From: Auricularia sp. M13
Taxonomy: Eukaryota; Basidiomycota; Agaricomycetes; Auriculariales; Auriculariaceae
Assembly (NCBI GenBank): GCA_037042915.1
Contig: CM073194.1
Span: 1,302,001 to 1,366,000, forward strand
Direction of reading: 5' to 3'
Length of the DNA: 64,000 nucleotides
The notes beneath the pieces were generated by a model. It was not told the origin of the DNA. It did no database searches and saw only the letters and a list, made by a program, of their open reading frames with translations. Shown here piece after piece: positions 608 to 58,313 of the stretch (position 1 is the stretch's first letter; every line of letters starts with the position of its first letter). The position numbers and the translations under genes were made by a program.

Positions 608-1281
608 GGCGAATGTGTGCATTCATGGATAGTGATTCGAGTTGTGTTCTTCCCCAATGCTTATAAGTATGTGTATCCCAAGAGATATGCCCAGATCGCA
701 ATAGTTCAGTCAGACTCAGAGAAGCGGCTGCCGCCTGCGCAAGATTCCAATGCCAATGATGATTCGCTGAATTCAGCAGCTCAACTCATACCACGCGCAT
801 TCCATTGAGATCTTCAAAAATCCCCGCCATATATCAGCACGCGGGCATCAATGGCACACCTAGTATGCATGAGCAACGTGGTGAGTTTACTAGCCTTGTC
901 ATGGTGAACACGTCGAAAAGGATGAAGGAAAGTGCTGAAACTCCGCGCTATCGTTCCGTTGTCCTCTTCTGCGCTACCTTGTAACGTGCTCGATAGTCTA
1001 GAGCACTCTAATACGGGCTCTACACCTTTCCGGAGGCGACGCGTGCGTCAGCCGCGCTGTTCCGAGTCTTGAACTGCTTCAATCGCTTTCATCGGCCCAC
1101 CCGCCGAACCAGTTAGGCTATGCTGAGCGCCTCGACCCCTGCGCTCATGGGATAAAAGAACCTTTTGCTTGTACGTCCAACCATGGAGCATGTCCGTTGT
1201 CACTGACAATGAGCTCCGCAGAGCTTGTGGTGGATTCGGACGCCATTCAGGCTCCAGCTTTGGGCTTTCTACGATCCAATC
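608..1281. other. Intergenic stretch between HIT gene and zinc-module gene A
   Basis: No coding region is supported here. It holds the 3' flanks of two convergent genes. The right part contains the downstream region of zinc-module gene A, which is conserved with its paralogues (see the element at 1282-1311). Short open frames in it lack any family resemblance. Confidence 0.5.
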
Positions 1282-1311
1282 GGACAACACTCTAGTACCT
1301 CCAGCTTTCAC
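1282..1311 (-). promoter_or_regulatory. Conserved 3' downstream element of zinc-module gene A
   Basis: Read on the minus strand, this 30-bp block contains AAAGCTGGAGGTACTA followed by GAGTGTTGTCC. It lies 62 nt past the stop codon of gene A. The same block lies 61 nt past the stop of gene B (34438-34467) and of the chimeric copy (41687-41716), and 205 nt past the stop of gene C (56181-56210). Gene A and B blocks match at 29 of 30 positions; B and C match at 26 of 30. Flanking shared words (ATGTATCATAGG before it, TTG-ATCGT-GAAA after it) also match between A and B. A role as a 3' UTR RNA element or processing signal is inference. Confidence 0.7.
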
Positions 1312-1372
1312 AGCGACACAATCAGCGACGGCGTTAAGGATACAATTCCTATGATACATCCCATGGTGCTCT

Positions 1373-3204
1373 TCACGCCGCCTCATCCTCCCTGTGCTGC
1401 GGCGTCAGGTCCGGCTCGTCGTGCATCTCGAGATCCTGGTATTTGGCGTAGTGGAAGATGCGCGCCAACCGCATACCGAGGAATTTAGGGATAATCGGCT
1501 TCCCGTGCTCTTCGAGCCAGTCGGCCAGCGCTCGGTTCGTCTTGGTACCGCTTGCGACGAGTTTGGCGAGGGCCTTGCATGCCGCGTTCCCACCATACCC
1601 GACCAAGTGACGCTCCATCTGGTGCGGGCGACCATATGCTGGCTCGGGGTGGTCGCAGAACGGGCAACGCGGGAGCATGCTCTCCCGCGGCGCACACCGA
1701 CTGATGTGGCTCTGGAACTGCTTCCACGTCGCGAACGCCTCGTACTCGCCGTTCTGCCCCGTCGGCTTGCAGTACTCCTTGCAGATGAAGCACGTGAATG
1801 GTGCCGTGGAATCCTTCGTCAGGCCTTTGGCCGCGCACTGCCGGCCACGCTCGGTGTCCTTGAAGAGCACACGTGGGAATGGAATCGGGAGTAGGAGCGC
1901 CGCTGGCATCTCCATATTTGGATCGGCCTGCGCCTTCTTCGCCTTCTTGGATCGGGCCTTCGTCGTCATTTGTGCCTTCGCCTTCTGCATCATGCCAGAC
2001 GGGGCCGCCCGCGACGACGCTGCGGGTTGAGCAAACCTGGGCAGAGATCCCTGTGATTGCTCTGGTGTTATCATGGTGTTGTCAGATTGGACGTCAAGTC
2101 CAAACTGGTTGCCGAGTTCAGCACTCGACGCATCGGCGTCATCTATACAACGAGTCCATCAGCAACGTCACCAGCACGGCGGCGAAGAACGTACCGTAGT
2201 GCCTTCCCGGGAGCGACAGGCGTTCATTGGCCCAGACGCCCTCTCCCATGCGGTGGTCAATAGTTTCGCTGCTAGGGAAGGTGCGTCCCATCGATCCATC
2301 GGACTGACTCCCACACCCAGGCGAGCGCCCAGACGAGGCGTCGAAGCTCGGCCACGCTGTGCCATATTGGTTGTCGATAGGCCAGGCGCTGTGAATATGT
2401 GGCAACGACTGGCTGAGCCTGGAGGGACCGGCCAGGGGCGGAGCCTCCAGCGACTGCTCGCGATCGCTGGGGCTGGTAACGGTTGAGGTGTCCGCCAACT
2501 CGAACCACTCGAAAGTCGTTGTCGACTGAGACGCACTTGATGGGCCAGCGACGGGCATATCGTTGTCATTCCAGACACCAGGCTGGGTGTCTGCGGTTCC
2601 ACTGGCAGCGGACAGCCCTTCGCAGGCAATGGCCGTCAGGGTTGACCCGTCGTGCGGAAGCATCCCATCTGCTTACGATATGTTAGTCCTTTGCCCAAAG
2701 CTCCTGCTGCTTCGACCAACTGACCGTATCCTGTGGCCAGGTCATTGTACGTGTCCGCGTCGCCCGTCGCGTACGGCATCGTATTCGTCATAATCGCGCC
2801 GTGTAACAGCAAGTCTAAAGCTTCTTCTGTACCCTCGGACGCTGGTTCGTATAGGTCAATGCCGAACGGACTGAACTGATAAGAATCCTAGCACTCGTCA
2901 GTCGACATGAATTGCGAGGAGGTGGTGGGGCATCGCCTTACCAAAGCACCCGTGCCAAAGTCCAGAGGTGTGTCATCCGGCGCTGAGCTCTCCAGGTCGA
3001 TGTTGGGTGACACAAAGGCATACGAGGCCTAGGCGCACGGCCGTGAGTCGACAGAGAGGGCATCTTGTGGCTCAAACTCACCAAGTCGTTCGTGCCAAAG
3101 TTGAGCAGTGGAGTTTGCGTGACTCCAGGCGGCATTGTCCAGTAATCGTCAATAGGTTGCGCGAAAGCCATGTTGTTGTCGAACTGATCGAGGGTGGTAG
3201 ACAT
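1373..3204 (-). CDS. Zinc-module protein A (putative transcription regulator, expanded family)
   Basis: Five exons: 3204-3082, 3028-2942, 2887-2725, 2668-2195 and 2142-1373, in phase, giving 538 residues. The start MSTTLDQFDNN follows a TATA box (about 3236-3243). The first two-thirds is low-complexity and acidic, with short DFGT repeats near exon ends. The middle carries GLDVQSDNTMI, a motif shared with the two paralogues. A Lys/Ala-rich basic stretch precedes the C-terminal domain, which has two candidate zinc modules: CFIC...FQSHISRC and CPFC...GRPHQMERHLVGYGG..AC. This layout (acidic region, basic stretch, paired Cys/His modules) suggests a nuclear DNA- or RNA-binding regulator, but the function is not known to me. 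Neighbours are convergent with the HIT gene and next to the broken CorA gene. Confidence 0.75.
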
Positions 3205-3617: not shown

Positions 3618-6333
3618 TCATTTTCCATTCTTTCCGCGAGCTTCCACTACAACACTAGCCAACGGAGGCTGTGGTGCTCCTGCCGCAACAATATCAGGCA
3701 GATTCTCACGTATCATCGCCCAGCCTCGCAAACGCGGCGCCGGCTCAGGTCCTGTCGCGTGCCGCCTCATGACTACGCTTTCGGGCCTCGCCTGTGGTCT
3801 CTGTGCGCGTCGGCGCCCTGGCATTGGAGGAATGTTCCAACGCAGCCAGGCAGCGTGCAAGTCTCGGAACGGCCAGAGGAGTTGGTGGTAGAATGGCGTG
3901 TCCGCGTCCCGGAGGTGGCGCCGAAGAGCTAGCATGAGCCAGCCCGTGACGACGATAAGAGGAAGACTTATGCCCAGGTATTCCCCGAGCGTCCCCTTTG
4001 TCCCGTCGCTGATGATGTTGAGATTCATCCCGAAGACTGTCTGCGCATTTAGTTAGTCGCGCAGCTATGTTTTCCGAGGTTGTACTTGCCGCAATGAATG
4101 TTGGCGGCAGGAAAACGGTCGTGAGGAATGTTATTTGCTGTGTTACCCAGCCCTGAGACTGAGCCGCCTTCGTGTCGCGGACCGTCAACGTTCGGAAGAT
4201 CTGTTGAGAGTGTTAGTGAATTCAGCGGGCGTAAGTATCTTTCACTGACAAGATCTAAGGCGTTGCTGACACGCTCCTGGCACATGTCCTTGGTGTCCTG
4301 TAAGCGCCGCACCTCGAGGAGAAGATGTTCGCATTCTCGCAAGGGGGCCTCGTCGGCAAAATCCGATATCACGAGGCGGGGGGGAGGGGGGTCCATTTGA
4401 GAGCTTATAAGAATTTTTTTAGGCAAGAATTTTACAAAAATCTCAGTGATTGCACTTGATCTCAGCTCAGAAGCCCTGGTTTTGAGCAGCAGAATGATTA
4501 ATAGGTACAGTCCTGAAGCCATTTTATACTTTATGACCAATAAAATCCGAGAAGTAGCTGAGGATGCTGTCTGTGTGAGCGGGTGGTGCTCTGGAAGCAT
4601 CCAGGCTCGGAATTAAAATTTGCCGCCGGATACTTGCAATGGGCCTCCACAGAGCACCAATGAAGCAGTAACATAACATTCCAACAATTTTCCAATGATG
4701 AATTTGCTTCCACATGACCTTTGGCTTGAGATGACTAAGCATCGGAAGCAAATAGGGGGGAGGGGGTCCATTTGAGGTCCTTATGAGAATTTTTGGCCCT
4801 GTGTCAATAATTTTTTTTCCGAGGCCCCCTTGCATTCTCGCTTAAATATTGCCCGAGATGCAGGATCATCGTAAGTCAGTTAGGCTGCTGCAGGACAAAG
4901 TCGACCGCGTTGTGGAAGTTTCTCAGGAGACCATTGTAAAGAAGCAATGCTGAGCGGACGCGATGCAGTTCGTGTGTGATATCGATTTCGCCGACTACCT
5001 CCTTGGTCATTGCGCGCTTTTCCTGAGTGCTCGTCAGCCCTAGACATCGTCATCGTTGAGAGCGGTTGGGAACTTACTGATGTCAAGATGGAGTCGAACA
5101 AGGCGTCCATCGCCTCGTCCCAGGCATACAGAGCATGCCACATAAAAACTAAGAGCATGAAGGTAGGGTCGTCCGATTTTCGCCAGATCTTGCCCCAATA
5201 GCTGCCCTTTCCAGCCATCAGTACCCGTTGGTACATATCCTCTGCGCTAGTGGTGAGCCAGAAGTCGGATTTGGGGTGGAGCATGATCAACGTTGAGGCT
5301 TCATGACGGCGGATAAGGTGGACTGCGAGTTGGTCGAGCAGAAGGGTATTCCCTGATATTGCATTAGACCATTTACCAAGCTACAGACAGGCCCTACCTG
5401 AGTTCAATTCAAGTGGATGTTGCAAATCTAAGACCAGCGCGTCTGGAGTGGTGGGTCAGTTAATTGAGCCTGTGATAGAATTCTGACCCACATTCGTCAT
5501 CATTTTTGTCTTCGGTCGACGTCTGATAAGACTCCGAGCTCACAGCTCGCACGAACGGCAAAGTGATAGTGATGTCTGTTACAGTAATTGTGAATTGTGA
5601 ATAGATGCAACGTGCCGCGGAAGGGATTACATACGGTCGCTTTTGCCATCTTCGTCAGTCTCTTGGTATCGCGAGGGAATGCCGTTTATGGCGCTCGAGA
5701 AGAAGAATGGCTCGATATTGTACCTGGGGGATGCAATCAATGCGTTGAAGGTTTCGTGTGCTGCTGGCCATGACATGCCACTAACTTTGCGCCTAACATC
5801 TGCAGTATGGAACCACACATGTCTCCAATAAATAGACAGCGGAGTGTAACACTGGCGGGTCGCTGAAATCAGGGCGTCAATTCCCTGCAGTGTCAGACTT
5901 CAGCGGTACAACTCACGGGATTGCAAAGCACGTTCCAGAGTTGTCCAATTTCGTAGTGCTTCAATGTTGGTCGAGGCATGAATCTGCCATCCTGTTGGAC
6001 ATCCAAGATATAGATAGCCGTTTCCGAACTTGCACGTCGTTCGAGAAGAAACCGAAGACCCGACCGCTCTGCAACATGGCCCGTCCAGTTCGGATAATGA
6101 GTACGGGGATATCCTGACCACTCCTCATTTCCGGAAAGCCGCATGCGCACAGGTGAAGACTCTGCGGACGAAAGACTGAGCGACGACGGCGGTCCGGAGC
6201 TCCATGGCCATGGTCCCGAAGGGGCGGCGAAGCGGTGAAGCGCGACGGGGACGTGCTCCGCGCGTACTGCCGGTCGTCTGGTATAAAGCAGTAGCTCTGG
6301 ACTCTGAACGCGATTCAAGTCGGCAGACATCAT
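3618..6333 (-). pseudogene. CorA-family Mg2+ transporter gene, disrupted by a MITE and an apparent frameshift
   Basis: The minus strand encodes a multi-exon fungal CorA-like protein. The C-terminal part contains TFLTTVFLPPTFIAA joined across an intron to VFGMN, so the GMN motif of the CorA pore loop is present, followed by a second hydrophobic segment near ISLPLIVVTGWLMLAL. Upstream exons carry LHPKSDFWLTTSAEDMYQRV and KIWRKSDDPTFMLLVF, typical of basidiomycete CorA-like proteins. A 493-bp hAT-type MITE (4340-4832) sits in the exon between IFKREC and EHLLLEV; removing it with one copy of its 8-bp target duplication restores a continuous frame there. About 70 nt upstream, between LQQPN and DDPASRA, the frame shifts by one base and no intron explains it. 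The exact start is uncertain. Family function: Mg2+ uptake by a membrane pentamer. The gene is probably dead unless the MITE is spliced out. Confidence 0.75.
4340..4832 (-). mobile_element. hAT-type MITE copy 1 (493 bp), inserted in the CorA coding exon
   Basis: The ends are perfect 13-bp inverted repeats, CAAGGGGGCCTCG at 4340-4352 and CGAGGCCCCCTTG at 4820-4832. They are flanked by an identical 8-bp target duplication CATTCTCG (4332-4339 and 4833-4840). Eight-bp duplications and CA(A)GGG termini are hallmarks of the hAT superfamily. There is no transposase frame, so it is non-autonomous. It shares end regions and internal words (TCAAATGGACCC, AAAATTCT, AATTATTGACACAGGGCC) with copy 2 at 47505-47996, which lies in the opposite orientation. 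Confidence 0.9.
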
Positions 6334-32458: not shown

Positions 32459-34377
32459 ATGTCGACTTCCTTCGATTCTTCCTGCAACATGGCCCTTCCG
32501 CCGCTCGGCGACGATCGTGTCAACGACTTCAACTATTCAGACCTAGACCAATTGTCGCAACCGCTTGTCTTCGGCACAGACGATCTGGTAAGCCGACGCC
32601 GCACGCGCCGTTGACACTGTCGACTCACCAGTGCGCGACTATAGATGTTCTTCGACTTCATGCCTCCCGATGTCGGTCCGGACTATGCGCTTCCATACTA
32701 CATGCAGCCCACGCCAGACCAACCAGCGCTGGGTACTGGCAACGATGATATCGTGAGTCAAAGTTGTCCAAGCGAGCTCTATCGACTCACGAGCGCACAA
32801 CAAGGCTTCATATGGCCTTCCGAGCGACATCGGCATGGCATGCGCGTATGGTTCGGACTTTGCGCAGCCGAGCCCATTCTTCCATATGGGATTGGGCGGT
32901 ACGATGGCGGGCAACTTCGCGCCAAACGTCTCGGGCTACGATGGTGGCGAAGCTTTTGGTACGGGTCAGTGCTCCGTCACGTGCGATGTAGTAGTTGGCA
33001 ACGCGCTTACATTGCGAGCAGAGACGATCCCACACGAGGTGCCAGCTTGGACCTCCACTGCCCTCGGCCAGTCGGACGCGCCCACTCCCTCGATGACTAT
33101 GGACCCCCCGACGCCGGCATATTCGCCCGGATCGCCGCCCGCGGCAGGCCCGTCGATGAGGTCCGCCTCAGCGGTCAACGAGGTTGGCCAGGCGGAGCAT
33201 CCGCAGGTGGCCGCCGCCACGGACGCATGGAGCTATTTCGTCTGGCGGTTGGATGATGTGGCGGCAGCAACGGGCTCCACCACCGTCGACGCGGCTTCCA
33301 ACCGAGTGGACGCGCAAACGTCGTCCACAACCAGGCAGCCTTACGCTATGCTAGTTCCGGCGCGCCATGGAAGTCAGTCCCAGACAATGGCTGCACATAC
33401 CTTGCCCCGCGGGGAGTCGTTTGGCCTGGTAGCGGCCAGTACCGCCTCGGCCGCGAGTGAGCACTCCAGTACGTGATTCCGTCGCCTTGAGGTAAACGTT
33501 TCTAACCACCGGTTGGGCAGGCGACGTATACGCGCCGAGTGCCGAGCTCAGCGAGCAGCTTGGACTCCACGTCCAAAAACACAACACATTCGTAATTCCG
33601 GCAGTCACAGGGCTCAAGCCCAAGACGACACGTCCAGCGGCATCTTCGAAGACCCGAGCCGCTCGGGCACCGGCATCCAGCAAGGCTCGTAGAGCTAAGG
33701 CGCCGGTATCCAGCAAGACGGCGCGCCCGTCGAAAGCACGAGCGCAGAAGGCCGCCAAAGCACAGGCTTCCAAAGCGACTAAGCCGCGCGCACCAAAGAC
33801 GCCCAAGAATCCGTTCCCGCGGGTCCCTTGGGAGAAGAGCGAGCGCGGTCGGATGTGCGTGAAGCGCGAGCTCTCGGAGGACAGCCCAGGGCCATTCCAG
33901 TGCTTCATCTGCATGGAGCACAACGCGCCCGGCGCCTCGAAGCTTTTCGATAGCTGGAAGTCCTTCAAGAGCCATGTCGGCCGCTGCGCGCCGGTCGAGA
34001 CCATGTTGCCGCGATGCCACTTCTGCCACGAGCGCATCGCCGCGTACGGCCGGCCGCACCAGATGGAGCGGCATCTGGTGGGGTATGACGGCTACCCGGC
34101 GTGCAAGGCGCTTGCCGACCTGGTCCACGGCGGGAAGAAGACACACTTCGCGCTCGGCAGCTGGCTCAAGGCGAAAAAGCTGCCCATCCTCCCGGAATTC
34201 GTCGGTAGGAGACTCGCGAAGGCGTTCCACTGGGCCGTTTACGACAAGTACGAGCGCGACAAGGTGGCGGACTTGACACCCCAGCACAGGAAGCCGAAGA
34301 AGAAGGCCAACAAGGGAGCTGGCGAGGAACGCGTCGAGGAGGATGACGACGACGATGACGACGACGACGAGGAGTGA
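32459..34377 (+). CDS. Zinc-module protein B (putative transcription regulator)
   Basis: Exons 32459-32587, 32645-32752, 32805-32958, 33022-33468 and 33521-34377 are in phase and give 564 residues. The N-terminal half is acidic and Pro/Ser/Thr-rich, with an FGTDDL exon end like FGTNDL in gene A. AELSEQLGLHVQKHNTFVI matches the shared motif of genes A and C. A Lys/Ala-rich basic repeat (KTRAARAPASSKARRAKAP and similar) follows. The C-terminal domain has CFIC...FKSHVGRC and CHFC...GRPHQMERHLVGYDG..AC, then a run of about 15 Asp/Glu. The exon number, intron phases and domain order equal those of gene A, so they are true paralogues. A regulator of gene expression is the best guess, not shown. The last 130 codons were copied to 41232-41626. 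Confidence 0.78.
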
Positions 34378-34437
34378 GGGCTGGTGTAGCATGTATCATA
34401 GGCATCGGATATTCAACGCCGCTGATGACTGGGTCCC

Positions 34438-34467
34438 GTGAAAGCTGGAGGTACTAAAGTGTTGTCC
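34438..34467 (+). promoter_or_regulatory. Conserved 3' downstream element of zinc-module gene B
   Basis: The block AAAGCTGGAGGTACTA then AAGTGTTGTCC lies 61 nt past the stop codon. Equivalent blocks follow gene A, gene C and the chimeric copy. It stands out from the surrounding 3' flank, which is less conserved. Confidence 0.7.
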
Positions 34468-35499
34468 CCTTGAATCGTGGAAATCCGGGCATCGATGCTG
34501 GGCGTTGATCACGTAGCAAGCACTTCACTGGGTTCAGTACAAAGCCAAAAAGCTGCAATGGCCTTGAATACGAGCAAGTTTCATGTGGGCCTCGTACGAC
34601 TGGCGAGTCTAGAAAAAAGGCGATGAGCGCGCCGCAAATCTGGACGATGAGAGCGATATGAGTGCAAAATACGCATCTTCTCTGTGTCAGGACGCTCGGG
34701 AATGGTTCCAAGCTCGTTTGAGAGCTCTCCCTGCGTAGAGCGAGCTCGGCGGTGTTGGAGACGCATAAAGATGACCAAGGTAGCGACTCGCTCGGACGGC
34801 ACGGACTCGGAGCTTTTTGAACCTCTCTTTATCCTCGCTGTCTACACCACGTTACTCAGCCATGCTGCGCGTACAGCATGCCCTTTGATCCTGTAAAAAT
34901 GAATGCAATCAGCGTGGTATGCGTGAGGCAAGATTTTATTATTGTGACTGCGTCAAAAGTGCTTTTGATTTTGATTTTTCTTTTGGTAGCGAATGAACGC
35001 ACGCCACAGCTGTCTTCTGTGAAGTTATGTCGTCAAGATGTCTCCAGCCTCGACACGAGTTCTCCAAGTCCTCGTGATTTCGAGCGTTCGAGTACAACGC
35101 TCGCAACGAACGTCCTCTGAATCGGCTGGTCAAACGACGACAATGACGACGGACTCAGGCTTCAGCTGGCTTGCCGTGCGATTCCAAATGCTACTGTACG
35201 CAAAGTGTCCCGGAGAACCACAAAGCTCCAACTTCAGACGTCTGCGACTCTCGGGGAATCAGGTCGAATTGTCGCCGAATGAGGGTGCAGTCTTTGACGT
35301 CCACGTCACTGGCACCTCTCATGCTGCATGAGACAGCAAAGTACAATAATTCAACGGACTGCGCAGCCGAGGAAGCTCGGGGCGTCGGACATGAGCGCAA
35401 TATCCGCGACCGTGGCTCGAGTACCATTTGTTTGGACAAATGCGTCACTCGCACCTTGTTCTCCACCTACTTCGCCCTCCCGACGTGGATTCCATCGTG

Positions 35500-37041
35500 A
35501 TGGTCTACGAAGACCCAGAAGAAACACTCGCATGGCACGAAATCACTGGAATCCCAATATTATGAGGTTCCCTGGGTGCAGCGGTTTGCGTACCTTCTTA
35601 ATTCTTTCTCGCGGCTACCGTCTTGATGAACGCTACGATCCAGACCATCTGCCGTAGTGGCTCCAGTGGTCAGTCGAGGACATGGATAATATCACTGAGG
35701 ACTCTTTAGGCGCCTTTTTCACGGCGTGTCCGGATGCTCTCGACGCGGTTAGCAAATTCGCGTTTTAACTTCTCACTGCGTTAAGTTGATCTCGCGCTGA
35801 CTTTAACTCGTCCAATCATTCTTTCGCAGGACCACCCCAGTCGCACACATGTCAGAGAAGCGACGCGCACGATGGATGGCCGCCAGATGTTCCTTGAGAT
35901 CATCCCCGACGATACCGAAGAGCTCGCCATCTTGCGTTTTCTGTCTTCTGCGCCGCTGGCCAACGATCCTGGAAACCCGGCAGCGCAGCTTCTTGAACGT
36001 TTTCCCGCGAGAGCGGATGATGCTGTATGGAAAGGATCGCCTGCGAGGAAGTATTTCTTCGTTGTGCTTCCGCTGCTGCGGCCGCCTCATGTCATGGATG
36101 GTGAGACGCTGACATTCATCAGGCAGTTCCTTGAGGTATTTCTCATCACCAGATATGGCACCGGCAACTCGTTCCGTCACCGGCACATTGCTCACGGATG
36201 CGCATTGGTTCAACAACAATGGGACTGATCACGCCTCCATTCTAGTCCATCTGCTGACGCTCACTGGCACCGGACGCAGGGACATCCGCTCAGCAAACAT
36301 CATGATGGACCCCTCCCAGCTGTTCCCGCGACCCCAAGGCCAACCTCGCGATCGACTTCAGCTTCTCCCCGAGTGCACGACCGCGTAAACGTCGACCCGC
36401 GCTATCTCTTCATCGACTTAGGGAGCAGCAACATGTTTGCAATTGCGAGCACCGGAAGTCGCGGTCTCGGGGCACAGATCGTTCAAGTTGTACTGCTCGC
36501 CAGAGATGGCCCACCCCGAGTCTTCGCAATCGCCGACGACGTATACCAGCTTCAAGCGCTGTTTTCTCACTGAGTCTTTCGCAAAGGTGTGTGTATATTG
36601 CGTATTTCGCCATAAAAAGTTTCACTTGCTAACGTTCAACTGCACACTCGCTGAATTGGGGCCTCTCCTCCTCTCAATGCAACATCCAGACCCCCTTCTG
36701 CGTCCCACAGCCCAATTCGTCCTGGCGGCATTCATGGAGATATCCGCTAAGCTATCGCGTCGCGCCCGGACATGCCGAGTAAGTGGGAGAGCGCATGCGT
36801 CGGCTCGTGGGGGCCCGGCTACATGCAGTACATGCACTTCCGGCACATCGCGACATACGTGCGCACCGCGCTGAAATGCACGGACCGTGCGCGTGGGATC
36901 TCAGTCCGTCACGGTTCTGCGCAGGAAACACATATGAGCCTGAGACGGAGCCGGCGAGGGTTATCCGAGGTGCTGTCAGAGGCGCCGCGTAGCACTATTC
37001 CTGTACGACCTTATGTACGCTCCCGAGCGAATACGATCTGA
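35500..37041 (+). pseudogene. Decayed copy of the HGDIR-type protein kinase gene
   Basis: The start MVYEDPEETLAW, the segments RGYRLDERYDPDHLP, ATRTMDGRQMFLEIIPDDTEELA, DIRSANIMMDPSQLFPR, VDPRYLFIDLGSSNM and the C-terminal MHFRHIATYVRTALK match the intact kinase at 42309-43816. Here the frame is broken: a shift after the first 20 codons, an in-frame stop at DHLP-stop-WLQW, and further shifts in the catalytic-loop exon and after RYLFIDLG. HLHRQ-type catalytic sequence before DIRS is not readable. This is a host gene relic produced by, or left behind after, the segmental duplication. Confidence 0.75.
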
Positions 37042-39222: not shown

Positions 39223-40403
39223 ATGCCCTCCTCCCGAAAGCGCGCGCAGGCCCACCCAGTAGGAGTCCTTTGTCGAGCATACGCTTCTGGTAGGACAAGA
39301 GTTATTGCAGCTTCGAGTCTGTGCTTATACAGTATTATCCACTGCACCGACGACAGGCCAGGGCTGCGATTGGGGCGCGTCTTGCAAATTCGAACACGAT
39401 CTCCATGCGCCTGCCGCGCCAGACATTGGAGGTATATGCTGGGATTTCAGTGCTCACGGTGAGTCGGAGGACTCGCGCGAGTCATCATTGTCGAGGCTCA
39501 TACGGGTGACTGAAGGTTCCTGTCTGCGTGAAACACAGAACGGTCATTGCGGCTACGTCCATGAACGCACCCAGGGTTTATTTAGCGTGGACGCAGATGG
39601 AGACCCCATATGGGCACCCCTGCCGTCGAACACCACGAGGTCCGCGTTTTGATACAGCTACCATTCTCTGACGGTATTGACGAGGCCACGATTCTAGTTC
39701 TGGGCCTCGGACCACATCCAGGGCCAACAGCTCCTCGGAGGTCACCCGCACAAGGGGTCGTGCTGCAGCTCTTAGCGTGGAGCATCGTCTTGGACAAGCC
39801 CAGCTGAAAGAAGAACGGATACTTGCACCTGAAACACTGCAGGATCATCTGGAGCGACCCAGGCTGAAAGCAGAACGGATACTTGCAGCAGCCCGAGAGA
39901 GTACTCGAGCGTGGAATTGTCGCGCGGTACTGGCTGAACAGGCAGAACTTGCAGAACGCCTGGGCGGGGCTGTCTTGGAGCCAGCAGGGTATGCCTTCCG
40001 ATCTAGCAGTCGAACCTACGCCGCTTCCAGTGTAACCGCCGTCGCTATCTCGTCCACATTACCAGCGCGGGCGGCTGGGGCTCACCCGGTCGCAGTCGTT
40101 ACGGTACGTGGTCAAGCCTGTGACACAACACGAAGGCCATTGCTGAAAGACGAGCAGCAGGCGTCGTCTTTGAATTGGCAGCCGCCTACCCCATCGGCGC
40201 GCGCTTCCAGTACAAATGCCTCGCGTGCCCGGAGTTGCAGGCATGGTCGATGGGCCGATGGTCAGACTGACTGTTTCGACTGCGACTGTGAGCGTCTTCG
40301 TGAGGCGGACGGAATCGAAGACGAATCGAGTGGCGGTGGTTGGGCTTGGCTTGGAGCAGTGGCGACCATGGCATTCGTCGCATACCGCTGGTGTAAACGT
40401 TAG
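39223..40403 (+). CDS. Tandem CCCH protein with C-terminal membrane anchor (CCCH-3)
   Basis: Start MPSSRKRAQAHPVG. Introns at 39290-39356, about 39460-39516 and about 39642-39699 join exons in phase. The first finger is C-RAYASGQG-C-DWGAS-C-KFE-H, a standard C-x8-C-x5-C-x3-H. The second is C-WDFSAHGS-C-LRETQNGH-C-GYV-H, with x8 instead of x5. Between them is APDIGGICWDF, as in CCCH-2. The C-terminal half has a short internal repeat (LKEERILA and LKAERILA) in an Arg/Ala/Glu-rich region, an Asp/Cys patch (DCFDCDCE), and a final hydrophobic segment WAWLGAVATMAFVAYRWCKR. The ending AYRWCKR resembles AYRWWRPG of CCCH-1. The third intron is inferred from phase only. Confidence 0.6.
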
Positions 40404-41686: not shown

Positions 41687-41716
41687 GTGAAAGCTGGAGG
41701 TACTAAAGTGTTGTCC
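41687..41716 (+). promoter_or_regulatory. Conserved 3' downstream element, copy in the duplicated block
   Basis: Identical in sequence and distance (61 nt past the stop) to the element behind gene B, as expected from the segmental duplication. Confidence 0.65.
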
Positions 41717-42308: not shown

Positions 42309-43816
42309 ATGAAGGTGTACGAGGACCCAGACACGGTTCTCGCCCTCATGGAATATTATGGGATTCAAGACTACGAGGAGCCGTGGGTCCAGCGGTTTCC
42401 CTACCTCTTGTCTCGAGGTTATCGCCTCGACGATCGTTATGATCCCGACCACATACCCTCTTGGTTCACCCGAACTATGGAAGAACTGAACGAGCTAATT
42501 GATACTGATTGCACCATGGGAAGATTTTATAGGACACATCCTGATGCACTAGCGGTAGGCGAATCTTCTGCTGTCCTCTTCAGCCGCTGATCATTCACAG
42601 GATTATCCTGATAAACGGGTATACGTCAAAGAGGCTACTCGGACGATAGACGGGCGCCAAGTATTCCTCAAAGTCATACCCGATGATACAGAAGAACTTG
42701 CTGCCTTGCGTTTCCTGTCGTCCAGTCCCATGAACCACGACCCCGTAAATCCAGCTGCGCAACTCCTGGACTACTTTCCCGTGAGCTCGGAGGACGACAT
42801 GTGTCAAATGGAAACTGGTAGAAACTATTTCTTCATCGTCCTTCCTCTGCTGCGCGAGTGGGACTGGCCGCCGCATGCCATGGTTGGGGAGACCTTACCG
42901 TTCATTGAGCAGGTTCTCAAGGTAATGTCGCATAGTTTTTAGTGCCTCCTTTATTCTTACACATGACAGGGAGTATCGTTCCTACATCGCCAAGACATTG
43001 CCCATGGGTATGCAATAATGTGCACTGGCAAAACGTAGCCACTGCCTGCTCATTCCAGCTCTTGACAGGGACATTCGCTCATCAAACATCATGATGGATC
43101 CATCTCAAATGTTCCCGCGGGGCATGCACCCGAAGGAAAACATCGCAATCGATTTCGGGTTCTCATTCCGGGATGAGCAAGTGCACGACCGCATCGACGT
43201 CAACACGCGCTATCTCTTCACTGACTTCGGGAGTTGCAACATGTTATCCGGTGGAAAGCGCAGTATTGTCCCTTGCGCGGGGCACCGATCATTATATTTC
43301 GCCCCAGAGATGCACTCGCCGCTCGGGTATGACCCTTTTATGGGCGACATCTACCAACTCGGGCGTTTTTTAGAAGAATTTTTCGCTGAGGTAAATCGAG
43401 ACGCTGCGCTCAATCTTCCTTTGCTGACACTCGATTCCTGACAGCCGATTCCCGAGTTAATGCCGCTCATTCAAGCTATGCTACACTCGGATCCCGCGAT
43501 GCGTCCCACGGCCGATGTTACCCTGGACAGCTTCAGCGAGATATCAGCCGGACTTACCCGCCCTGCGTTTCTGCGCTTCATGCCGAGCAAGTGGGAGGTT
43601 CAGTGTGCCGAGGCCTGGCTGCCCAACTACAAGCGTTTCATGCACTTCCGGCATGTGGCGACTTATATGCGCACCGCTCTAAAGGCTACAGCGCGGGAGA
43701 CTGCGGCTGATCCTATGCATGACGGCCAAGTCACACGACGGAGGCGAAGCCTGTCACTGATGTCACCTGATACTTCCCTGAGACAGCATGTACGCGCGCG
43801 AGCAGTAACAATATGA
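42309..43816 (+). CDS. Protein kinase of a fungus-specific HGDIR type, intact
   Basis: Exons 42309-42554, 42601-42921, 42970-43007, 43069-43390 and 43445-43816 are in phase and give about 432 residues. A leader of about 80 residues (MKVYEDPDTVLALMEYYG; YDPDHIPSWF) precedes the kinase core. VYVKEATRTIDGRQVFLKVI carries the likely ATP-binding lysine, YFFIVLPLL the hinge, FLHRQDIAHGDIRSSNIMMD the catalytic loop (His-Gly-Asp and Asn), FTDFGSCNM the DFG motif, SLYFAPEM the APE segment, and MLHSDPAMRPTAD the RP motif before the last helices. A basic tail with RRRRSLSLMS follows. All catalytic residues are present, although Arg replaces the usual Lys after the catalytic Asp, so it could be active. 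No substrate is known to me. It is a copy of the gene now decayed at 35500-37041. Confidence 0.8.
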
Positions 43817-47191: not shown

Positions 47192-48079
47192 GCTGGTATC
47201 TTAGCAGAAGATGAACGGCATTCCCATGGGTGTACGAGTGCAATCTTGCCAAAAGCTTGAGCATGTTCCCACGGTCCATCCGCCAATATAGCGCAGTGAA
47301 CTGGGAGGCAGACGCTACTGCCTGTGACGATGCCCGGTCACGAAACGGCGCTGAGGATGCCACAAGGTCTAGAAGGACGAGCGTGGAGTGGCGGGGCGAC
47401 ACGTAGGGATGCGGTATTGAAAGATGAATGTCGGCCGGCTGCGCAACACGCTTTTCGTCGTCCTCTTCCAACTTGTTTGGTTTCAGTTTCTGCGCTGGGA
47501 GCTCCAAGGGGGCCTCGCAAAAAAAATTATTGACACAGGGCCAAAAATTCTCACAAGGGCCTCAAATGGACCCCATCCCCCCCTATTTGCTTCCGGTGCT
47601 TAGTCATCTCAGGCAAAACACCATATGGAAGCAAATTTCTCATTGAGAAATTGTAGGAATGGTATGTTACTACTCAATTGGTGCTCTGGAGGCCCATCTC
47701 CAGTAGTTGGCGGCAAATTTGAATGCCGAGCCTGGATGCTTCCGGAGCACCACCCGCTCACACAACCACCATCCTCAGCCAATTCTCGGGCTTGATTGGC
47801 CCATGAATTCTGCAATGGCTTCTTAGCTACCTATTGCTGACTCTGCTGCTTAAAAACATGGTTTCCAGGCTGAGACCAAGTGTATTCAATGAAATTCTCA
47901 CATAAATTCTTGCCTAAAAAAATTCTCATAAGCTCTCAAATGGACCCCCCTCCCCCCGGCCTCGTGATATCGGATTTTGCCGACGAGGCCCCCTTGGGGA
48001 GCTCGCGATCGAGCCCGTCCAGCGTTGTCCAGTGCACCGGAACAAGTCTCCGGCTTTCGTCGCATGCTAGTTCAAGCAT
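46998..48079 (-). pseudogene. Unknown ORF interrupted by hAT-type MITE copy 2
   Basis: On the minus strand ATG at 48079 opens MLELACDESRRLVPVHW and runs to DRELP at the MITE border. Past the MITE, the frame continues in phase as AQKLKPNKLEEDDEKRV and HPYVSPRHSTLVLLDLVA to a stop at 46998. Without the MITE and one target duplication this makes an uninterrupted frame of about 195 codons. I recognise no domain. Whether it was ever a gene is uncertain; the codon order in the middle looks protein-like (Leu/Ala helix after HSTLVLLDL). Confidence 0.4.
47505..47996 (+). mobile_element. hAT-type MITE copy 2 (492 bp)
   Basis: Perfect 13-bp inverted repeats CAAGGGGGCCTCG (47505-47517) and CGAGGCCCCCTTG (47984-47996) are flanked by the 8-bp target duplication GGGAGCTC (47497-47504 and 47997-48004). 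It is within 1 bp of the length of copy 1 and lies in the opposite orientation. It is non-autonomous. Confidence 0.9.
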
Positions 48080-56120: not shown

Positions 56121-56180
56121 GTTCTTAACACTGACAGTTTATCAATAGGGATCAATTTCCGCTGGTCGTGGCGTTCAAAT

Positions 56181-56210
56181 GGATAACACTTTCGTACCTC
56201 CCGCTTTCGC
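56181..56210 (-). promoter_or_regulatory. Conserved 3' downstream element of zinc-module gene C
   Basis: On the minus strand: GCGAAAGCGGGAGGTACGAA then AGTGTTATCC. It agrees with the gene B block at 26 of 30 positions although the proteins have diverged far more. It lies 205 nt past the stop codon of gene C. Confidence 0.6.
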
Positions 56211-56414
56211 ATGCTACTGGCTCGCTTCGACTCTGCGCGCAATGGGTCACTCCTGCTGTGTACTCCAAACGGATCCTTTGCTTAGTGGTTTACCCATGCA
56301 CTCGTTACTCGACTGCGATTCGATGGATCGGATGAGAGCCCATTTCCGTCTATTCAAATGTGCCAACCCTCCACGATCCGCGTGCCTCTACTATTACTTC
56401 GTCTACGCGCCCCC

Positions 56415-58313
56415 CTACGCTTGCGAGGGCCCCGCTTCAGGTGCGGTCGAGGATTCCGCTTCCTGCGTATCTGAGGGTCCCGCCACTGCCTGCGCCTCCG
56501 CGCCACCACTGTCAGACGCCTCCCCACCGGCTTTCCTACTCTTCCTCGACTTCTTCGCCCGCGACGTGCCACCCGCACCGGCGGGGACCACCACCGTCGG
56601 CTGCAGCGAGAGCTCCGTCCCACGCCCGATCTCGCCCTTCACCAGCTGCTCTAAATCGCCCGATAGCTGGCTGCTGAGGTGCTTCGGCTGCATCTCCGTC
56701 CGGCCGTTCTGCTGCAGCCAGTCCCACAGTTCTCCGACGGTCCTGAGCCCCAGGCGCGGATACACCGTGCACACGGGCACCCCGTCCATGCCGAGCAGGT
56801 GGCGCTTCATCCCAAACGCGCGGCACCCGCTCGGGACGTCGTTCAGGCAGAACTGGCAGCTCACCAGCACGTCCGGCCCCGCGCCGCACCGAGTGTGGTG
56901 CTGGTAGAAGCTGTCCCACTTCGTGAAGCTCTTTGGGCAGCCGGCGAATAGGCACGTCCAGGTCTGCCCGGGCGTCTTCGTGTAGGTGGATTGCGCGAGG
57001 ATCTGGCCGCGGGCTGTCTCCGCGAAGGGGGGCGATTTGAATCTGGCGAGGAAGGCCCCGAGATCTTCCACTGGTATTACTGGAAGCCTGCCTTAGCTCT
57101 GCGCGTCGATGCAAGGGCGATGGGCGGTGAAATGCTTACCTGGTGCCCGCTCATTGTTTTTGGATGTGGAGGATTCACCGTGCTGGGTCTCGGCAAACGG
57201 GGCGGACCTGGAAGACCTTGCATGGCCTGTTGGAAGCGTCAGCTTTGCGAGCCGCGATAATGGTACTGGCTAGTGAAGCGCATACCCGAGTCCGACCCTT
57301 CTGCCGCGCTCGACTCGGAGTAGGAGCGCTTCTTGCCACTCCTCGCCGAGGTCCAGGTACTCGCAGCGTCGGCGCCAAGCGAGCCATTTTGCGCTGCCAC
57401 GGAATTGTTGTCGGCCGCAGCATGCGACTGTTCGGTTGCTATAAGAGTGTTGTACGTTTGGACGTCGTGTCCAACTGGTTCGAGCGGGAGGTCGGGGAAG
57501 TTCATCCCGGCTGCCTCATATCACGGTAAGCATCATGCTTGAATCCACGCAATGAGCAGCAGATCACGTACACCATGAATCGCTCGCAGGCATGAACGAG
57601 GGCCCGGCCTCTCCAGTACCAAGGTCTAACGACGGCCAGTCTGGAACTGGGTCTCGGTCAACCGTTGCGAGCCGCAGGTACGAGAGCGACGAACTTTGGA
57701 TGCCAAGAACCTGATACGCCTCGTAGAGAGTCTTCGCATCAATGGGCGCGTCGGGGTGCAGGGGCGCTGGTGCCGGGTATCCGTATAGATCCAAGGTTTC
57801 CGGCGAATCGAAGTCCCCCATCATGAGAGGCGGTTGATCGAAGGGCATAGCGGCCGGCGGCAAAGAGCCCAGTTGACCCATGTCGAACGTGAGCCCATCT
57901 AAGATTTAATCAATATACTGCGCTGTGGAAAACTCAGATGTTGTGCTCACCGCTGTCCTGCGCGCCCTGCTCATATCCATAGTATTCGTTGGCCAATTCT
58001 TCAAGCGCAGCGGCCGAAGTTTTCGCGGTGGCATCCGCTTCGAGGACTTCATTTCCTCCAACCTCTCCGGCAATGGATGAGGTATTATGATGGTCGCCCT
58101 CGAGCTGCAATGCGAGTGCGGGCTGGAGATCGCCAGAGCCCTGTATTGGCGCGTGAGAAACGCGTGGCACGAGAGCTACAACCATCTTACCTCAATGGGC
58201 GGCTCGAAGTATGTCCAGGGAGTGCTCATGGGATTGAAGAAAGCCGCAGCGGTGTCGGAATGGTCGTGCCGAGGCAGGTCGGGTTGTTCGCCGGGAGGCG
58301 GGGTGCGCGACAT
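56415..58313 (-). CDS. Zinc-module protein C (divergent paralogue of A and B)
   Basis: Start MSRTPPPGEQPDLPRHD at 58313, downstream of TTATATAG (about 58361-58368 on the plus strand). Exons encode an acidic, Ala/Glu-rich N-terminal part (ANEYYGYEQGAQDSG; DSPETLDLYGYPAPAPLHPD), then PLEPVGHDVQTYNTLIA, which matches the shared motif of genes A and B. After a Pro-rich exon (FQQAMQGLPGPPRLPRPS) the C-terminal domain has CLFAGC...FYQHHTRC and CQFC...FGMKRHLLGMDG..VC: the same two modules with extended spacing in the first. The tail is Arg/Lys- then Glu/Ala-rich and lacks the Asp run. The joins near 57240 and 57080 are approximate. Function as for A and B: putative regulator. Confidence 0.65.

Follow-up and report, generated by a model that had tools for sequence, protein, structure and literature searches.

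The 30-bp block that follows the stop codon of the zinc-module genes in this 64-kb window (the whole stretch of DNA analyzed here) forms the downstream arm of an inverted repeat internal to the gene; its reverse complement matches the beginning of that gene's exon 2, 0.8–1.3 kb upstream. This anatomy is well supported: complementary arms lie within one gene region in 7/7 of the genes that carry both, and in each they form the top inverted repeat. The zinc-protein gene family itself is fast-changing; the block behind its genes is nearly unchanged. The mechanism that we favor, tentatively and for clades 1 and 2, is a fold-back RNA stem, in which the downstream arm of the transcript would pair with the upstream arm in exon 2.

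A search of the genome (52.1 Mb on 14 contigs, within which every comparison reported here was made) yielded nine accepted copies of the block, eight behind eight zinc-module genes, all in one orientation relative to their gene, and one orphan on another contig, with 19 of 42 positions invariant across the nine. The pattern reaches beyond the window, which covers C2:1302001-1366000. The sequence-only reading had placed the block behind all zinc-module paralogues, which holds for genes A, B and C, for the chimeric copy X and for eight genes genome-wide, but fails for the ninth, most diverged zinc-module gene, behind which the genome-wide family search found no block. In X, the upstream arm was not detected. 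The window also holds a second stretch duplicated along with B and X (36277-36875 and 43066-43683), whose motifs we take to resemble those of a protein kinase.

The block identities reported earlier for A–B (29/30) and B–C (26/30) are borne out, while fourfold-site identity is 15/42 and 6/22, respectively, for the same pairs. Between clades, fourfold sites are 27–60% identical and look near saturation, and the block retains 21–29 of 30 positions. Within clade 1 the flank is largely conserved too. Between clades, however, the equal conservation over the whole flank that had been named as a sign of recent duplication is not what we observe: identity is 80–90% in the ungapped core bins from 0 to +20 and 5–48% in bins lying before -10 or beginning at +40 or later, and past the block the alignments stop at +28 to +40. 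Because fourfold sites look near saturation and between-clade alignments end just past the block, its conservation is, judged from these comparisons, not merely a product of recent duplication.

The two arms also seem to change together. In the observed register, 75.6% of cells are paired, compared to 29–42% when the arms are slid (0/500 shuffles), and cognate arms match better than swapped arms (2/5040 permutations). Cells with two-sided change and the covariation score both stand at 0/500 shuffles; the results are weaker when counted by pairs showing two-sided change (25/500) or by types of pair (82/500). The shuffle statistics leave relatedness in, and a similar outcome could arise if the arms convert one another. 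This behavior hints at either pairing or sequence exchange between the arms, the positions of which are given in Table 1.

Table 1. Zinc-module gene features, inverted-repeat arms and reported blocks in the window
Feature	Positions	Strand	Remarks
Gene B exon 2	33521..34377	+	Upstream arm, basic linker, zinc module, acidic tail; splice acceptor inferred
Gene B upstream arm	33557..33614	+	Within exon 2; peptide LGLHVQKHNTFVIPAVTG; also 9-mismatch minus-strand match of block at 33579-33608
Gene B downstream arm	34433..34486	+	Includes reported block
Gene B reported 30-bp block	34438..34467	+	
Gene A exon 2	1373..2142	-	Acceptor inferred
Gene A upstream arm	2049..2106	-	Within exon 2
Gene A downstream arm	1263..1316	-	
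Gene A reported block	1282..1311	-	
Gene C open reading frame with zinc module	56415..57071	-	
Gene C upstream arm	57420..57477	-	In coding exon upstream of zinc exon (exon inferred)
Gene C downstream arm	56162..56215	-	
Gene C reported block	56181..56210	-	
Chimeric copy X reported block	41687..41716	+	X without detected upstream arm

Two observations weigh against pairing as the whole explanation. Two downstream positions that are unpaired with the upstream arm are nevertheless invariant, and the orphan copy on contig C10 (L032:4660-5140) retains the core with no partner upstream arm detected. This orphan is a piece of ~440 bp, 72% related to the 3' region of gene C and including the block; pieces of this type were located at two places in the genome only, behind gene C and on C10, and no zinc gene was found beside the latter. 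Compared with C, it has kept 39/41 core positions, and 26/30 within the reported 30-mer, versus 316/453 overall. Since the unpaired positions are invariant and the C10 copy is conserved without a detected partner arm, pairing is not the full explanation for the block.

Both observations could be accommodated if the block were instead all or part of a coding exon of a small convergent gene on the opposite strand, encoding a protein with (I/V)QxDNT(L/F)VPPAF, paralogous to the motif in exon 2, the two genes having been duplicated as pairs, hence the presence of the block behind zinc genes. We consider this possible, if somewhat unlikely. The antisense frame of the 30-mer, the only codon-like one of six, shows 11 synonymous against 6 non-synonymous changes (p=0.001), in a parsimony count over nine copies with the tree assumed from the clades, this p being the floor of 1000 permutations and uncorrected for six frames. 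The same frame of the 42-nt block gives 15:13 (p=0.003), a stronger signal than that of the upstream arm in its own coding frame (20:31, p=0.10); the opposite strand of the upstream arm at offset 0 gives 22:29 (p=0.035). In gene B, moreover, a three-exon antisense model built by hand reads in frame to NTLVPPAFTGPSHQRR and then a stop. We note, however, that no antisense model (these being hand-built rather than taken from a gene finder) is consistent across all copies, and that the flank of the block shows no sustained coding signal.

The arms might also act as DNA, with recombining or template-switching inverted repeats homogenizing each other and at times swapping or flipping the intervening cassette, such that ongoing conversion between the arms, and between them and the matching arms of sister genes, would keep the block. 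This could produce the same co-variation as a fold-back stem, but we regard it as unlikely: arm-specific states survive within the supposedly converted stretch (column 39/79 is mismatched in 7/7), clade 1 and clade 2 downstream arms group by position (support 90), and the orientation of every accepted gene-associated block relative to its gene is the same. Arms this long are, in addition, short for mitotic recombination, which counts against such exchange.

The sequence-only reading had proposed a functional 3' untranslated region element. That reading is partly supported; a site bound sequence-specifically by a protein or small RNA is possible but improbable. Such a site would fit the contrast between core and outer bins and the 19 invariant positions described above, but leaves three things unpredicted (that the block has a partner upstream, that the arms co-vary and that the antisense frame changes like codons), and the genome-wide search found no near-full complement of the block elsewhere. 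A candidate switch, in which arm recombination would flip the zinc-module cassette and, by way of a hybrid arm, connect exon 1 with the antisense frame NTLVPPAFTG...stop to produce a short isoform that is zinc-less, is very doubtful, and no flipped cassette copy was seen in this assembly. If true, it would make both arms coding, each in its own state, and would jointly explain the antisense codon-like change, the co-varying arms, the frame-independent conservation and the divergence of the cassette. Least probable of all is that the block is a neutral relic left by an inverted duplication or a transposon terminus and preserved only by recent duplication, which would suit the conserved clade 1 flank but not the gap between fourfold and block identity. 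A terminal inverted repeat from a DNA transposon is likewise disfavored, since homology in close pairs continues beyond both arms, no target-site duplication was seen by eye at the arm ends and only the nine copies were accepted genome-wide.

Elsewhere in the window, which has a G+C content of 56% and gave 0 matches to Rfam or transfer RNA models above family thresholds, a 493-bp repeat (4340-4832 and 47505-47996) has at least 45 matching pieces genome-wide; both its ends are also found on C1, C5, C7 and C10 at a spacing of ~6.1–6.2 kb, which would fit a short derivative having the same termini as a longer mobile element. Two 50-bp units, 78% identical, stand in tandem at 39778-39887.

The zinc-module genes, which appear to have short introns, offer a natural test of whether selection can act on pairing over a long distance (or on exchange between arms) in a single gene: a sequence beyond the stop codon is more durable than the gene's own fourfold sites and seems to change in concert with a coding block ~1 kb away. 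Neither Pfam (above cut-off) nor PDB (by sequence) gave a match to their proteins, so regulation could offer a first handle on the family. An inverted partial gene copy can reportedly yield a fold-back RNA complementary to its source gene. The zinc-gene arms likewise amount to an inverted partial gene copy, as in the inverted-duplication model of how plant microRNA genes arise (PMC3237417), but both arms lie in one gene ~1 kb apart, one is protein-coding, the host is probably a fungus, and any small RNA from them would be hypothetical. In the basidiomycete Ganoderma lucidum, 373 convergent cis pairs of natural antisense transcripts are described (PMC5515960), a likeness to the possible antisense transcription at gene 3' ends here; the term "inverted repeat" is absent from the main text of that paper. 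Fungal hairpin small-RNA loci (PMC9757828) involve fold-back RNAs in fungi, a feature that our system would share, but the zinc-gene arms are widely separated and one of them lies in coding sequence.
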